Source of the DNA: Actinomycetota bacterium | GTDB taxonomy: Bacteria > Actinomycetota > Acidimicrobiia > Acidimicrobiales > UBA8592 | Direction of reading: 5' to 3' | Assembly: GCA_902565595.1 (NCBI GenBank) | Contig: CACFFD010000002.1 | Span: 1-64,000, forward strand | Length of the DNA stretch: 64,000 bases | In this document: in pieces, positions 54,677 through 61,999 of the stretch | How the letters are laid out: each line of letters opens with the position of its first letter | Numbering within the stretch: the first letter of the stretch is position 1 | Notes under the pieces: generated by a model | The model's input: only the letters and a program-made list of their open reading frames with translations | What the model was told of the DNA's origin: nothing | The model's database searches: none | Translations under genes and position numbers: made by a program

Positions 54677-56209
54677 TTACTCCGGCGCTAAGGATTCTAG
54701 GCCTAGTCTTTCGGCTTCCTCAGGAGTCACGTAAGCTTCAATTCCCGCATTACTATACACTTGGACGAATCTCTGGCCGACGCGAATATCAGCTTGAAAA
54801 TCTAATATATCCACACCAATCCAGCCTGGAGGAACTTCACTCCTATCGAAAATAAACCAATTTACGTTTCGAACTACTTCGGCGCCTAGCCTGTCATCAT
54901 ATTCTTCAGGTGGTGAAAATTCTAGTAGAGCAACACGTTCGCTCAATAGCGGTAGCATTTTCTCTGAAGCACGTACCACAGCATCATCTGGTACTAGGTC
55001 AGCTAGCTCTAAACGTGCTATATCAACTGGATTCTGCCTCCCCCATCCCCATGGTTCTTCGTAGGGTGAAGTAACCGAATTAGCAGTAAAAAAGACTACC
55101 GACGTAAATAGAAGAGCGCCGATAATTGCCCTATCAACATTTACTCTCTGGACGATGATGCTTCCGGTTTTTGCTAATGCGAACACTAAAGCAACAAATA
55201 TGAATGCAGTCATAGGAATATTTTGGCTTGCTTCTGCCAACTCTCCCTCTTGAACATCAGCAGTTAAATACAAAGCGAAAAGGGGTATGGCTGGAATCAG
55301 GTATCGTGGAGCTACCACTGGCAGAAACAAGACCGGAGCCAACAGTGACACTCCGACGATAAAGTTTGCTTCAGAAAAAAGTTCTCCTAAAAATGCCAGA
55401 GGGCTGATAATGATTCCCCAAACGATCTCAAAAGGGTTTCCACCTCCATACTCTGAAAATGCTTCAACATGGGGATAATGTCCTGCATTGTACAATGGCT
55501 GAACGCCGAGGATAAAAATAGTTGCCCACGCAAGACCGAAGCTTATTGTCTGATAGCCGATCTTTCGCCTACCTTCTATGAGCCAAAGAACTCCTAGTCC
55601 CGCTATAGCGATACCTAAATCTGCACGAGCTAAGAGAGCAACGATAATAAGTATCCAGTACTTCCATGTTTTCTCTAAAAACCCTGAATACACTGCGGAC
55701 AGTAGTAGCGGAAGAGCAAGAGCCTCTAAGTGGAACCCCGCTATATTTACTGCGTGAACAGCACTATATAGGCTGTACACAATCAATATTGAGGTACTTG
55801 CACCAGTACGAAGATGGGCTATGTTACGACTCATTCGCCATAGAGGGACAGCAGTCAACGCTAAAGCTCCTGATTGTATAATAATCAAAGTAATTGCAGT
55901 TGGAAACAACTTTGTTAGCCCAGCAATTGGATATATTAAGAAGCCTCCTTGTAGAGAAAGATAATTTTGACCAAGTAGAGACGCATCAGGAGTGAAACCT
56001 TCTCCTATAAGCCACACAGATTGCATGAACGCTGCCAATCCAGCATCTTGACTCAATTCTCGAGATCTTGCTAGAGCTAATAGTGCAAAGACCGCCCACA
56101 GAAGGGCTACGCAGCACCACGGAAAGAATCGATCAAAAGCTGCACTCTCGAAACGGGCTTGCCACTTTAAAAGTTTGTATTCAAGGCGTTTTCGCCAATG
56201 TAAAGTCAT
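54677..56209 (-). CDS. DUF2079 multi-spanning membrane protein
   Basis: A 510-residue protein with roughly ten transmembrane segments. The N-terminal LALARSRELSQDAGLAAFMQSVW and GFHLEALALPLLL segments are typical of DUF2079, related to GT-C glycosyltransferase folds. A periplasmic C-terminal domain (about 400-510) contains VRASEKMLPLLSER. Possibly involved in cell-envelope glycan transfer; inference from the fold. Isolated gene. Confidence 0.85.
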   Translation of the reverse strand: MTLHWRKRLEYKLLKWQARFESAAFDRFFPWCCVALLWAVFALLALARSRELSQDAGLAAFMQSVWLIGEGFTPDASLLGQNYLSLQGGFLIYPIAGLTKLFPTAITLIIIQSGALALTAVPLWRMSRNIAHLRTGASTSILIVYSLYSAVHAVNIAGFHLEALALPLLLSAVYSGFLEKTWKYWILIIVALLARADLGIAIAGLGVLWLIEGRRKIGYQTISFGLAWATIFILGVQPLYNAGHYPHVEAFSEYGGGNPFEIVWGIIISPLAFLGELFSEANFIVGVSLLAPVLFLPVVAPRYLIPAIPLFALYLTADVQEGELAEASQNIPMTAFIFVALVFALAKTGSIIVQRVNVDRAIIGALLFTSVVFFTANSVTSPYEEPWGWGRQNPVDIARLELADLVPDDAVVRASEKMLPLLSERVALLEFSPPEEYDDRLGAEVVRNVNWFIFDRSEVPPGWIGVDILDFQADIRVGQRFVQVYSNAGIEAYVTPEEAERLGLESLAPE

Positions 56210-56275: not shown

Positions 56276-59200
56276 TTATTGATATGAGAGATAGTAGAAG
56301 GCTCCGGCGGCACTTTCCCCAGATACGTTCCTCCCTGGAGCTCCGATAATTAAGTCTCCATTTATTGGTGCGAAGCTATACCCGAATAGTGCTTGAGCCT
56401 GAGAATTTCCACTTATTGACGATTGGTATGGGTAGAGGATCTGATCGTTACCGGTTGAAATTTCTCCATTTAATCCTGGCAGAATTGCTACTGCTCCTGC
56501 ATTTAACTTTTTGGAGATTGACTCTCCGGGAACACCAATGATTAGGTCTAAAGAGTCGTCATCGATCAAGTCCGCTACTTGGATATAGTGTCCAAATCGA
56601 TCTCCACTTTCAACTCTATTTTTTATGCCTCTAGCATTTTGATAGAGAGTTTGCACCTTCACTTCTGATTCAGACCACTCCCCTGGGTTGTAACGGACTT
56701 GAACCTGGCCCGCATTTTCGTATTGTCCGAGGTCTTCTCCCGGTATGCCAACAATAAGATCACCGATTCCGTCATTATCGATATCCCCTATGGCCAATGC
56801 GGAAGCGAATCTGTCACCTGTCTCTGCCCTTCCCGGCCAGTTAGGTGAATTTTGGTAATACCAGTGACTACCTTGTCCAGATACGCCATCAGTAGATCCA
56901 TAGAGAATATGCAAAGCACCAGCTTCATACTTAGTTCTAGCGCCCCAACCAACAGTCTCTCCCGGAACGCCAATGGCTATATCGTCGTATTGATCACCGT
57001 TAATGTTCCCTACAGCAATAGCTTCTCCGAAAGCGTCGTCAACTTCAGGTTTACTGCGGACTCTTCGTGTGTATTGGTGAAGTGTTGTACTCCCTTCTCC
57101 ACTCAATCCAGATTCAGACCCGTAAATTACATGGACTAAACCTGCGCGTTCCTGTCTCGCTACTCCTTCTCCAGGCACTCCAACTACTAAGTCATCATAC
57201 GAATCTCCATTTATATCTCCAGTTGCTAGGGAGTAGCCGAATAAGTCCCCGACTTCTGAGTCTGTACCGACGCCAGGACTATATTGGTGTATTGCTGATG
57301 GATTTGCCAGTCCAGAAGTACTTCCATAGAGGACAGTGACCATACCAGCATCAACAAGCTGATTATTTCCGCCCAAGTCTTCATATGGAGTTCCAATAAC
57401 TAAGTCGTCAAAGCCATCATTATTGAAATCTCCAGAAGTAAGTGAAGCTCCGAAACTATCACCGCCTTCAGGGTCTGAATGAAATCCCTCAGTTCCTTGT
57501 GTGAAGATAGCTACTGATGCGAGGTTTAGTGTTCCGTTAAATACATATACTGCGCCAGCTTCATCATTTCCATTCACAGTAGCTCCTGTGGCCCCTACGG
57601 CTACGTCATCGACACCGTCTCCATTAAAATCTCCTATAGTCATCGCTGCTCCGAAATTGTCATCTCGGATTGGCCCTGAATCTTCGGGAACTAAACGCCT
57701 GTCAATCTGTGTACCTGATGTCGGGGTTGGAGTAACGGGAGATGAACTTGTTGACGCAGAACTTTCCCCTATTGGATTCTCTGCAACAACCGTAAACGTG
57801 TAACTAGCACCATTAACTAAGCTATTAATAATACATTGTAAGGACGTGGTTGAGCAGGAAGCACCAGCTGGGGTGCTTGTCACCCTATATGAAGTGATTG
57901 GCAAACCTCCATCTGATAAAGGAGCGTCCCAAGAAATACTCGCAGATCCATTTGTTGCTACAGCAGCTATATTTGTTGGCGCATCAGGGACTGAAGCTGT
58001 TGTCATAGTATGAAACGCCCAATCTCCATATCCCGTAGAATTTTGTGCACGAATCCTAAAGGCATATAGTTGGCCATCTGAAAGACCTGAGATTACTTGA
58101 GAATTGTCAGCTTCCGAGTTCAGAGTAACCCACGATTGCCCTATATATGAACTTACCCAGTCCGTATAGGAGGATACTCGTGTATAGACTCCAGGGTAAG
58201 AGCTCTGAGCGCACCCTTCGCCCCAACTGACTATCCCTACTAGGTAGAGAATTCCAGAATAATTACCAACTAAGGGTCCGCCACTATCCCCTTGACAGCT
58301 GTCGTTACCCTGACCGCCAGCGCATATCATTTTGGAATCTATAACAGGTATTAAAGTTGGACCGGGATATGATCCACACGATTCGTCTACAAAAACTAGA
58401 GCTCCACGTAATACTTCCGAAGCACTACCGCCAGAAGAAGTTCTACCCCACCCTGTAACAAATAGTGGATCGTCGTCTTCCGGCTGAGAATTTAAATCAA
58501 GAAGAGGTAATGATCGGCCCTCTATAGGGGTTGCAAGATGTACTAAACCTATATCGTTTTCCATCGTGTTCCTATTCCAGTCAGGGTGAATATGAACTTG
58601 ATCAGCAGAAATGTAGCTACTAGCAGGAAGAGAAGTAATCCCATACGCAACACTGACTGAGGTCGCTGTTACATATGCAGAACCTCCATTGGGTAAATAT
58701 TCAAGGCAATGTGCAGCTGTAACTATCCATTCGGGCGTTAGTATTGTCCCCCCACACGACATTACCCACCCGGGATCAGTTGCTATCTCCAGTGACACCT
58801 GATACGGGTGATCAGAAATAGACACTGGACTTCCTCCAACAATTTCAGGATAAATAACTGTTGAATTTCCGGAAAGTGGAAGCCATTCTCCCGCTGGAGA
58901 TTCAATTATGCGATGTTGTATCTCATAGCCGGTGATTGCTGTGCCACCGTTATTAGGTGTAATCCATGCTGCTTCAATTTCTCCGGATGATATGGAAGTA
59001 ATTGTAAAGTCGGTTGGGGTATCGGGTACCGCTAAGGGGATTACTTCGTTTGAGGTTAGTGATTGACTGCTCTCACCTACCGCATTAGACGCAGAAACTA
59101 CAAAGACATAAGCGGTTCCGTTCGCTAGCCCTTCTACCGTGCAACTAAGTGCCTCAGTTGTGCAGGTCAGGCCTCCAGGTGAAGACGTGACTGTATAGCT

Positions 59201-61999
59201 AGTAATTGATGAGCCCCCGTTACTAGCGGGCTCTTGCCATGTTATGGCTGCTTCTCCAGAAGTGGCGGTAGCTACAACAGAAAGTGGAGGACTAGGAGGA
59301 CTTGCTGGAACAATTGGTGAAGTTGATGCACTTGGCTCGCTTGAGTTACCCGCAGAATAATCCGCGACTACAGAAAAGGTATAGGAAGTTCCGTTAACTA
59401 GACCATTAATTATGCAGTTATTCCCTGTTGTTGAGCAACTACCATTTGGAATGCCAGTCACTGTATACCCCTCAAGATTCGTTAGGTCTAAAAGCGGTGG
59501 GTTATCCCAACTTATAGTTGCCGAAGAGTTTCCTGCAACTGCATTCACATTAGTTGGAGGGGGATATTGAATTGTTTCTTCGAGAACTACTAGCCCCTGA
59601 GACCACGAGTCACCAAGTGTGGTACCCGAGAATCCGAGACGATAACTACCTGCAATGTTAGGTAAGATTTCTTCAGGAATCTGCCATCCATATGTCTCAG
59701 TAGGTAGTAGTTGATTTTCATTCACAATCATTACTTGTGAATTTACGGTCTCGAGTGTCAGCCGACCACAGAAAAATATTCCCTGATCCCAGTCCCAATC
59801 GTCTACTATTCTAAGCGTCCAATCTCCTGACGTTTGTTTACCATTAAATGCTGACAGGGCTTCTCTTGGTCTTGATTTTCCAACGTACGGAGGTGTCCGG
59901 TCTGAGATTGATTCTGCAGCACTGTCAGTGAAGTAGGCTAGATTGCCAGAGCAATCTTGACTGCCGTCACCATAGTTATTTTGAGATCCCCCATTGCGCC
60001 TTGCGAGCAGTACCTCCGTGCCATCGGGGTGAATAAGGGAAATATTCAAATCTGCCACATATGAATGGTCGAATCTTAAACCCACTTCCACACTCTGAAC
60101 TGTGTCATTCTCAGTAATTGAGAATGTGAACTCACTAATATCATCTTGCCCACCGATATCTGGCATTGAATAGTTGCCTTCTACTTGTGCGAAGGCAACG
60201 GATTGCGCGATTAAGTTTGATGTCTCTCCATCTGGGCCATCCCAAATCCACGATGATTGGATCACATCTCCAGGATCAGGAACGATAAGTGCTTGCGGAT
60301 GAACGAATTCAAACGTCCTTTCTTGTACATTAAACGTGGCAGAGCTCCGTATTGTAATTCCAGAAGTATCGTTCACTTCCGCAGTTAATCGGAGCAAGCC
60401 TATATCGCCCGTGATGTGCGTTAAAGTTGCTCCTGTTCCAAGAGTGTTCCCAGACACATCTTTCCACGTAACAGTTGATGAGACATCTGTACCATCAGAT
60501 TGTATTGCAAGGGCAGTAATCTGAATCAGGTCGTTCTGATAGACATCCGCCCCAGGAGTGTGGCCGGGAAATGTTATTGAGCCAGATGATATAGAAAGTT
60601 CGACGGCTGCTTGAGCATCTAGCTCTCCGCCAAAAAGCACTGCACCGTTCAAAACACTTGTGGGACGAGCAGAATCACTTAATATCTGAATAATCTCTTG
60701 AGGTGTAGATTGAGGTCGCATACCAAGGATCAATGCTGCAACACCAGCGACATGTGGACTTGCCATTGAAGTCCCATTTAGTGATGCATAACAATCAGCT
60801 CCACTTCCCTGACCGCAGTATTGATGAGAGATAGATGAAAGTATCGAAACGCCAGGAGCTGCTATATCTACAGTGTTCAAGCCATAATTTGAAAAGCTTG
60901 CTAAATCCCCAGATGAATTAATTGCAGCGACACTGATAATATTTGAATTGCTATATGCAGCAGGGTAAGAGGGGTTTAGGTCTATATTTGTGCCAGCATT
61001 CCCAGCTGCAGCTACGAATGTATGACCCGCCTGATTTGCTGCTTCGATCGCATTAAATAAACTAGTGCTGTAGCCTCCGCCTCCCCAAGAATTATTCGAA
61101 ATTTGGGCCCCGTTAGCAACAGCGTACTCTAAAGCAGATATAGCGTTATTTGTAAATCCGTTGCCAGATGAGTCCAAAAACCTCAGCGGCATAATCTTTA
61201 TATTGTCGGCTACACCTGCTACACCAATGTTGTTATTTCTAACAGCGGCGATAGTTCCAGCGACATGAGTTCCATGTCCGTTACCGTCTTCAGGTGAGTT
61301 ATCATTAAATGCAAAGTCCCATCCGTTTCTGTCATCGATATACCCATTACCATCATCATCTATGCCGTTTCCGGGTATTTCATCTTCATTATCCCAGATA
61401 ACACTCGCTAAATCTGGGTGCGCTATATCGACGCCTGAATCTATAACTGCAACGATTACTTCTGTAGCTGAGCCTGAGAGTTCCCACGCTCCTGCAGCTC
61501 CAATTCCATTATCTCCAGATAGGCCCCACAATTCATTTACACGGGGATCATTGGAGATATCGTCAGCTCTAACAACTCGATCGAACTCTACAAAGTCTAC
61601 AAGAATTGATTCGGAGAGATAGTTCTTTGCATTTACGTTACCTTGGACGGTTTCAACTAGATACATGCGCAACTCGGGGAAGTAATCCACTACTCCTGCC
61701 CCTATTTCAGATAGCAATTCATTAATCTCTTCAGTTGAAGCATTTGGATGAAATACGACTAATACTGCATAGGGGTTCGTTTGTAATTTTGGAAATTGCT
61801 CCAACATCTCACTTGCGTAGTCTCGCGCCCACTTCCCTTCGGACTGGACTAAAGACTGTGCATCTTCATTAGTATCTTGAGGTTGCCCTATATTATTCTG
61901 ATCATTTATTGCTCCCACAGATGAGGGAAATAGAAATGAAGCAACTAACGAGGCAGCTAAAATTGCAAATATCAATCTGGGAATCTTAGTTCTTCTCAT
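56276..61999 (-). CDS. Giant secreted protein: subtilisin + P domain + Fn3 + nested trypsin + FG-GAP propeller
   Basis: 1907 residues. Signal peptide 1-30; I9-like propeptide about 73-146; S8 subtilisin about 157-465 with Asp187 (AVIDSG), His242 (GHGTHVAG) and Ser411 (GTSMASPH); Ig-like about 470-560; proprotein-convertase P domain about 610-750; Fn3 repeats from 813 to 990; a third Fn3 (992-1337) interrupted by a complete S1 trypsin domain 1053-1287 with His1097 (TAAHC), Asp1149 (ENDIGL), Ser1239 (GDSGGP) and Asp1233 in the specificity pocket; a fourth Fn3 to 1425; then seven FG-GAP repeats 1440-1907 with DxDxDG-type calcium loops. Both triads intact. No sorting signal or C-terminal anchor seen. 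Confidence 0.93.
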   Translation of the reverse strand: MRRTKIPRLIFAILAASLVASFLFPSSVGAINDQNNIGQPQDTNEDAQSLVQSEGKWARDYASEMLEQFPKLQTNPYAVLVVFHPNASTEEINELLSEIGAGVVDYFPELRMYLVETVQGNVNAKNYLSESILVDFVEFDRVVRADDISNDPRVNELWGLSGDNGIGAAGAWELSGSATEVIVAVIDSGVDIAHPDLASVIWDNEDEIPGNGIDDDGNGYIDDRNGWDFAFNDNSPEDGNGHGTHVAGTIAAVRNNNIGVAGVADNIKIMPLRFLDSSGNGFTNNAISALEYAVANGAQISNNSWGGGGYSTSLFNAIEAANQAGHTFVAAAGNAGTNIDLNPSYPAAYSNSNIISVAAINSSGDLASFSNYGLNTVDIAAPGVSILSSISHQYCGQGSGADCYASLNGTSMASPHVAGVAALILGMRPQSTPQEIIQILSDSARPTSVLNGAVLFGGELDAQAAVELSISSGSITFPGHTPGADVYQNDLIQITALAIQSDGTDVSSTVTWKDVSGNTLGTGATLTHITGDIGLLRLTAEVNDTSGITIRSSATFNVQERTFEFVHPQALIVPDPGDVIQSSWIWDGPDGETSNLIAQSVAFAQVEGNYSMPDIGGQDDISEFTFSITENDTVQSVEVGLRFDHSYVADLNISLIHPDGTEVLLARRNGGSQNNYGDGSQDCSGNLAYFTDSAAESISDRTPPYVGKSRPREALSAFNGKQTSGDWTLRIVDDWDWDQGIFFCGRLTLETVNSQVMIVNENQLLPTETYGWQIPEEILPNIAGSYRLGFSGTTLGDSWSQGLVVLEETIQYPPPTNVNAVAGNSSATISWDNPPLLDLTNLEGYTVTGIPNGSCSTTGNNCIINGLVNGTSYTFSVVADYSAGNSSEPSASTSPIVPASPPSPPLSVVATATSGEAAITWQEPASNGGSSITSYTVTSSPGGLTCTTEALSCTVEGLANGTAYVFVVSASNAVGESSQSLTSNEVIPLAVPDTPTDFTITSISSGEIEAAWITPNNGGTAITGYEIQHRIIESPAGEWLPLSGNSTVIYPEIVGGSPVSISDHPYQVSLEIATDPGWVMSCGGTILTPEWIVTAAHCLEYLPNGGSAYVTATSVSVAYGITSLPASSYISADQVHIHPDWNRNTMENDIGLVHLATPIEGRSLPLLDLNSQPEDDDPLFVTGWGRTSSGGSASEVLRGALVFVDESCGSYPGPTLIPVIDSKMICAGGQGNDSCQGDSGGPLVGNYSGILYLVGIVSWGEGCAQSSYPGVYTRVSSYTDWVSSYIGQSWVTLNSEADNSQVISGLSDGQLYAFRIRAQNSTGYGDWAFHTMTTASVPDAPTNIAAVATNGSASISWDAPLSDGGLPITSYRVTSTPAGASCSTTSLQCIINSLVNGASYTFTVVAENPIGESSASTSSSPVTPTPTSGTQIDRRLVPEDSGPIRDDNFGAAMTIGDFNGDGVDDVAVGATGATVNGNDEAGAVYVFNGTLNLASVAIFTQGTEGFHSDPEGGDSFGASLTSGDFNNDGFDDLVIGTPYEDLGGNNQLVDAGMVTVLYGSTSGLANPSAIHQYSPGVGTDSEVGDLFGYSLATGDINGDSYDDLVVGVPGEGVARQERAGLVHVIYGSESGLSGEGSTTLHQYTRRVRSKPEVDDAFGEAIAVGNINGDQYDDIAIGVPGETVGWGARTKYEAGALHILYGSTDGVSGQGSHWYYQNSPNWPGRAETGDRFASALAIGDIDNDGIGDLIVGIPGEDLGQYENAGQVQVRYNPGEWSESEVKVQTLYQNARGIKNRVESGDRFGHYIQVADLIDDDSLDLIIGVPGESISKKLNAGAVAILPGLNGEISTGNDQILYPYQSSISGNSQAQALFGYSFAPINGDLIIGAPGRNVSGESAAGAFYYLSYQ
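58139..58843 (-). other. Trypsin-like (S1) domain inserted in an Fn3 domain of the giant protease
   Basis: Encodes residues 1053-1287, from IVGGSPVS to SSYIG. Preceding Fn3 sequence (ITGYEIQHRI... EWLPLSGNST) and following sequence (SWVTLNSEADNSQVISGLSDGQLYAFRIRAQN) together make one Fn3 module. The residue before IVGG is Glu1052, not Arg or Lys. Confidence 0.8.

Follow-up and report, generated by a model that had tools for sequence, protein, structure and literature searches.

Trypsins are made as zymogens that become active once the chain is cut before Ile16, and many animal multidomain trypsins tether the cut N-terminal part through a disulfide. TMPRSS2 and plasma kallikrein, both among the PDB matches of the trypsin described here, are of this kind and carry an S1 domain with Ile16 activation C-terminal to accessory domains. 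Several serine protease domains per chain are also found in the human polyserases (PMC1435904). Among prokaryotic serine proteases, a survey of 2008 listed the architectures Tryp-FG-GAP, Subt-P_proprotein and Subt-fn3; Streptomyces avermitilis NP_825221.1, for example, combines an S1 trypsin with FG-GAP repeats C-terminal to it (PMC2605481). Deseasin MCP-01 of Pseudoalteromonas is a secreted marine exoenzyme of S8, P and PKD domains, with the P domain and a beta domain that binds the substrate lying behind the catalytic domain; it degrades collagen with a P1 preference for Pro or basic residues (PMC11294657).

The stretch of 64,000 nucleotides analysed here as a whole (the window), from a member of the Acidimicrobiales, contains a gene in which modules of several of these kinds are joined. 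It is a single unbroken open reading frame on the minus strand with ATG start and TAA stop, and its parts are arranged as follows (residue numbers refer to the 1907-residue translation).

56276–61999, minus strand: whole gene, 1907-residue secreted two-protease protein (ORF, Pfam, orthologues)
61910–61999, minus strand: N-terminal signal peptide, residues 1–30, MRRTKIPRLIFAILAASLVASFLFPSSVGA, judged by eye (basic start, hydrophobic core, A-x-A-like end)
61565–61909, minus strand: S8 prodomain region, 31–145; sub-threshold similarity to Fervidolysin_NPro-like (PF22148) at 79–130, E 0.005, kept in orthologues
60575–61564, minus strand: S8 subtilase catalytic domain, 146–475, with D187/H242/N334/S411; Pfam 206 bits, best solved homologue 3vv3 (1.2e-72)
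60275–60574, minus strand: conserved region 476–575, without Pfam match; alignable throughout the homologues and roughly 30% identical to chains of family f34
59774–60097, minus strand: P domain, 635–742; Pfam PF01483, 41 bits
59315–59566, minus strand: Fn3-1, 812–895, with the pair Cys855/Cys862; Pfam fn3 stretches and alignment
59045–59308, minus strand: Fn3-2, 898–985, with the pair Cys946/Cys953; Pfam fn3 at 902–982
58862–59038, minus strand: N-terminal half of Fn3-3 (strands A, B, C), 988–1046; fn3 model positions 1–40, 23.1 bits alone, strands at pLDDT 71–85
58841–58846, minus strand: trypsin activation bond Glu1052–Ile1053; Asp in three orthologues, Gln or His in f34 chains
58145–58843, minus strand: S1 trypsin domain nested in Fn3-3, 1053–1285; Pfam 172.5 bits, H1097/D1149/S1239, Asp1233 (189), Asp1238 (194), six cysteines
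57998–58138, minus strand: C-terminal half of Fn3-3 (C′ to G), 1288–1334, starting after the GxxW junction; fn3 model positions 43–79, 19.7 bits alone, pLDDT 68–94
57725–57991, minus strand: Fn3-4, 1337–1425, with the pair Cys1382/Cys1389; fn3 48.1 bits, pLDDT about 86–95
56279–57682, minus strand: seven-repeat FG-GAP propeller, integrin-alpha-like, 1440–1907; Pfam 169 bits, PDB fold matches all integrin alpha

All Pfam assignments lie over the gathering cut-off, namely Peptidase_S8 (180–445), P_proprotein (635–742), fn3 (128.7 bits in five stretches), Trypsin (1053–1282) and FG-GAP, and they bear out the order of S8, P domain, Fn3, S1 and FG-GAP propeller in one 1907-residue chain which the original prediction had read from the sequence; the residues it had named for the two triads (D187/H242/S411 and H1097/D1149/S1239) and D1233 were all found correct on the translation. 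To judge from its signal-like N terminus, read by eye, the chain looks like a secreted one. Region 476–575 may form an Ig-like sandwich. Fn3-1, Fn3-2 and Fn3-4 each contain a cysteine pair, and the split Fn3-3 contains none.

The subtilase possesses the features of the S8 family, with a clear profile match, the complete triad and the oxyanion residue N334, and a homologue search of the PDB identified MCP-01 as its closest solved relative. The chain also shares the succession of S8 and P domain with the deseasins; a PKD domain, their C-terminal hallmark, was not found in a Pfam scan over its full length.

The segments before and after the trypsin correspond to portions of the fn3 model that complement each other, and each scores below the fn3 cut-off of 25 bits when alone; joined with the trypsin left out, they reach 47.1 bits. 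The split point at about fn3 position 40–43 recurs in one f34 chain and one chain of family f54, and a Gly-x-x-Trp motif at the trypsin exit is invariant in all 11 nested chains aligned. By these profile matches one Fn3 domain is split, the trypsin being inserted between its strands C and C′, and a simple end-to-end order of modules like beads on a string is ruled out. An AlphaFold (AF2) model of the nested region, built from only four sequences, gives both Fn3-3 halves confidently with three plus four strands and the trypsin with a pLDDT below 50. The halves may pack into one sandwich, as this model supports; a Foldseek search with it matched Fn3 tandems, which is no proof of split packing.

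The nested domain is a regular S1A protease, as judged from its profile score, the triad H1097, D1149 and S1239, and the Ile16/Asp194 pair represented by I1053 and D1238. D1233 aligns with chymotrypsin Asp189, so that the predicted cleavage after Lys or Arg, deduced originally from this residue, holds on the alignment. The same prediction had envisaged a self-activating enzyme, and for the trypsin this part does not stand. The residue before IVGG is Glu in the window chain, Asp in its three orthologues, Gln in seven chains of f34 that combine S8 and S1, and His in one. Thus, none of the 12 S8+S1 chains offers Lys or Arg at this position, which is not required for S1A membership, and Asp189 is kept in all 12. 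As the residue before the cut is non-basic while an Asp189 trypsin wants Lys or Arg, trypsin self-activation is disfavoured in the S8-bearing chains, and the sequences suggest that activation would fall to another protease. As a possible activator, the subtilase on the same chain is the first to come into consideration. However, the P1 preference of MCP-01 does not predict a cut after Glu or Asp, and the activator may be another enzyme. Moreover, non-basic residues precede the mature N terminus in many further trypsins of the order, also where an S8 partner is lacking, so the pattern alone is no proof of activation in cis; in nested chains without S8 the residue varies (R, A, Q, V, M, S, T, L, N). 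The trypsin domain contains exactly six cysteines, the number expected for the three core disulfides, and consequently no spare cysteine for a tether.

At the C-terminal end, seven FG-GAP-like repeats are readable in 1449–1907, five by regular expression and two more by eye; Pfam detects five stretches, and the seventh repeat is degenerate and devoid of the acidic loop. The best 50 PDB matches of the modelled propeller are all integrin alpha propellers, at a moderate model confidence (pTM 0.67, mean pLDDT 52), in agreement with the seven-repeat integrin-like propeller proposed originally. Propellers of the same kind occur in the same genus at the C terminus of M23 peptidases (722–725 residues) and SpoIID proteins (932–950 residues), and at the N-terminal side of an Amidase_3 protein of 841 residues in the window's own genome. 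In annotated f34 chains SLH domains occupy the propeller's place. This replacement, together with the propellers on cell-wall hydrolases, favours a retention or binding role, for which attachment to the cell surface would be at least as fitting as the binding of particles. Fusions of FG-GAP repeats with cell-wall hydrolases were recorded at L043 755–3280 (own genome, contig C1), L045 3781–5949, L036 4410–9498 and L049 7–2805, and three FG-GAP-tailed secreted proteins (S8, M23 and SpoIID) stand in tandem at L036 1–9498 (G002:C17). The head of an M23+FG-GAP gene and an FG-GAP tail are each found at a contig end in the window's genome (L044, start of own C24; L042, start of own C29) and are probably one gene broken by the assembly.

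A protein search in 60 relatives yielded full-length collinear orthologues of 74% identity in G010, G015 and G012, on the contigs PBMJ01000035.1, PBIQ01000042.1 and PBPU01000098.1 of marine MAGs labelled Acidimicrobiaceae, the last belonging to the Tara Red Sea set. A contig scan of the genome collection, which relied on narrow peptide patterns, matched only these three and three weak partial sequences. An upstream HAD hydrolase gene with an AMP-ligase gene beyond it is common to all, and a gene for a DUF2079 membrane protein lies downstream wherever the contig extends that far. The latter gene (window 54677–56209, minus strand) follows directly on the same strand, also adjoins the protease gene in G010, G015 and G005, and might encode a functional partner. 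G010 and G015 were the only pair in which silent sites were unsaturated. Here dN/dS amounts to 0.08 for S8, 0.07 for S1 and 0.09 for the propeller, against higher values in the prodomain (0.26) and the N-terminal half of Fn3-3 (0.31); on these ratios, purifying selection keeps both catalytic domains and the propeller. Strong trypsin matches (above 170 bits) in the window's genus were confined to this chain, in 4 of 18 genomes, and the weaker ones are, by their sequences, probably HtrA-like. In G001 and G005 the gene is cut by contig ends and not informative on the trypsin. G002 of the same genus encodes S8, P, Fn3 and FG-GAP without trypsin, and in the syntenic gene of G009 Fn3 passes straight into FG-GAP, with no trypsin in the part readable before the contig ends in the first FG-GAP repeat. 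The trypsin is thus dispensable; the S8 tree has no resolution at the G002/G009 fork, and gain and loss both fit. Concerning a mobile origin, no nucleotide match among phages and no plasmid record covering 80% of the protein were obtained. IMG/VR viral contigs encode S1 trypsin-like proteins at 68 loci (L156–L223), the better full-domain matches being 35–42% identical; these marine viral matches cover essentially the catalytic part only, and a phage or plasmid origin was rejected on these results.

Beyond the genus, profiles of the nested region were compared with overlapping sets of 397 (order), 395 (class) and 396 (phylum) genomes and with the families f34 (51), f59 (39) and f54 (48). Matches spanning both Fn3 halves occurred only inside the order, in the window's genus, f34, f54 and one f59 genome. 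The 12 S8+S1 chains belong to four genera of two families, four to the window's genus and eight to f34 (g78, g517, g519). The f34 chains (e.g. L093, L094, L095, L249, L252) share S8, P domain, Fn3, Fn3-nested S1 and a further Fn3 with the window chain and differ in having one Fn3 fewer and an SLH end instead of the propeller; P domain, Fn3 and SLH are annotated in L093, L094, L249, L252 and L253. Three aligned f34 chains are collinear with the window chain from the prodomain to Fn3-4, with identities of 57–59% in S8, 44–46% in S1 and 34–36% in the P region. The simplest reading of this collinearity is that the architecture common to the window's genus and f34 was inherited. In the trypsin tree a clade with support values of 98/91 unites the nested domains of the window's genus, f34 and G148, and those of f54 lie outside it; a single origin of both clades is not rejected (p-AU 0.24). 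Among trypsin matches in long ORFs outside the order, an S8 domain was not seen in those examined (L147–L155). The Fn3-nested trypsin is also present in chains without subtilisin and in chains with two trypsins. The f54 genus g526 encodes an 1183-residue chain of the latter type (L281 665–4213, plus strand; also L282, L283 and L284), in which one Fn3 appears to be split by a PD40 beta-propeller together with the first trypsin; in G1084 the motif of the second trypsin is GDGGGP, the catalytic Ser being replaced. In L097–L102 and f54 relatives the nested S1 domain has Gly instead of Asp at position 189, which implies a specificity different from that of trypsin.

Based on the sequences, we propose that the protein is a retained or substrate-bound secreted exoprotease of marine Acidimicrobiia in which two specificities are coupled in one chain, a reading to which we give about even chances. 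After export, the subtilase would mature by cutting off its own prodomain, as S8 enzymes do. The trypsin would be made as a zymogen and be switched on by a cut just before Ile1053, performed by the attached subtilase or another extracellular protease, since the preceding residue is acidic. Such a cut would sever the backbone between subtilase and trypsin, the latter lacking the tethering cysteine of many animal multidomain trypsins; if the two Fn3-3 halves keep a joint sandwich fold from which the trypsin loops out, the severed pieces might nevertheless be held together. The propeller, or SLH in the related family, would anchor the enzyme to the cell envelope or to its substrate, and broad subtilisin cuts and Lys/Arg-specific cuts would be made at the same place, most likely for feeding on particulate or surface protein. 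The degradative or adhesive machine for polymer particles foreseen in the original prediction is plausible. A more specific version, offered tentatively and with rather more doubt than belief, is a one-chain cascade with a built-in clamp, in which the subtilisin would cut the acidic bond in cis and the split Fn3 would take the place of the disulfide tether of the animal enzymes.

Other explanations weigh the same observations differently. The gene might encode a string of independent modules, in which both proteases function without regulatory coupling, any protease activates the trypsin and the cut Fn3 is no tether. The non-basic residues in many trypsins of the order lacking an S8 partner agree with this, as does the rife shuffling manifested in the exchange of FG-GAP and SLH, the extra Fn3 and the absence of the trypsin from G002 and G009; however, several families retain both the nesting point and the GxxW junction, and S8+S1 pairing in 12 chains of four genera is more than loose shuffling would suggest, so that we consider such independence possible, if somewhat unlikely. 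The enzyme might instead be fixed to its own surface by propeller or SLH and trim or shed surface proteins there rather than digest food. SLH, a cell-wall-binding module, at the propeller's place in f34 and the same propeller on M23, SpoIID and Amidase_3 proteins, which are expected to act on the own wall, would suit envelope processing. Against it, proteins from outside the cell are the substrates of the closest characterised subtilase relatives (PMC11294657), a cell would run a risk in displaying two broad proteases on itself, and no target was identified, which leaves this role rather improbable. Finally, the prediction itself had named a mis-assembly joining two genes as its refutation, and the genome is indeed a fragmented MAG of 77 contigs and 63% completeness. 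The three full-length collinear orthologues, with identical architecture and gene context in other MAGs, and the eight S8+S1 chains of another family would demand the same error in 12 assemblies, and mis-assembly is thereby ruled out for all practical purposes.

Should the coupled exoprotease also work as a cascade with clamp, the Fn3-nested trypsin would count as a device general to the Acidimicrobiales. Its location within an Fn3 sandwich suggests how a zymogen could be activated by cleavage and still remain attached, and, if the subtilisin is the activator, the chain would provide a compact model for protease cascades in bacteria. The exchange of propeller and SLH and the propellers on cell-wall hydrolases make the role of bacterial FG-GAP domains testable as surface retention versus substrate binding.

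All parts of the protein belong to known families; their arrangement is new to us within the part of the literature searched. There, with the genomes compared being those of Actinomycetota, neither an Fn3-nested trypsin nor a chain of S8, S1 and FG-GAP was found described, in line with the original claim that no such example was known, and a chain with subtilase and trypsin together was not found in the 2008 survey (PMC2605481). Within the material searched, it is rare for one secreted chain to combine two serine proteases of unrelated fold. Compared to the window chain, NP_825221.1 has three to four repeats (the survey gives both numbers) and no subtilase, and nesting in Fn3 is not described for it (PMC2605481). 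MCP-01 contains PKD and has neither trypsin nor Fn3 array nor propeller. The protease domains of the polyserases are all S1 and in tandem, whereas the window chain joins the unrelated S8 and S1 folds with S1 nested (PMC1435904). Unlike TMPRSS2 and plasma kallikrein, the window trypsin has six cysteines only, and the chain runs on through the remainder of the split Fn3-3 and through Fn3-4 to the propeller.
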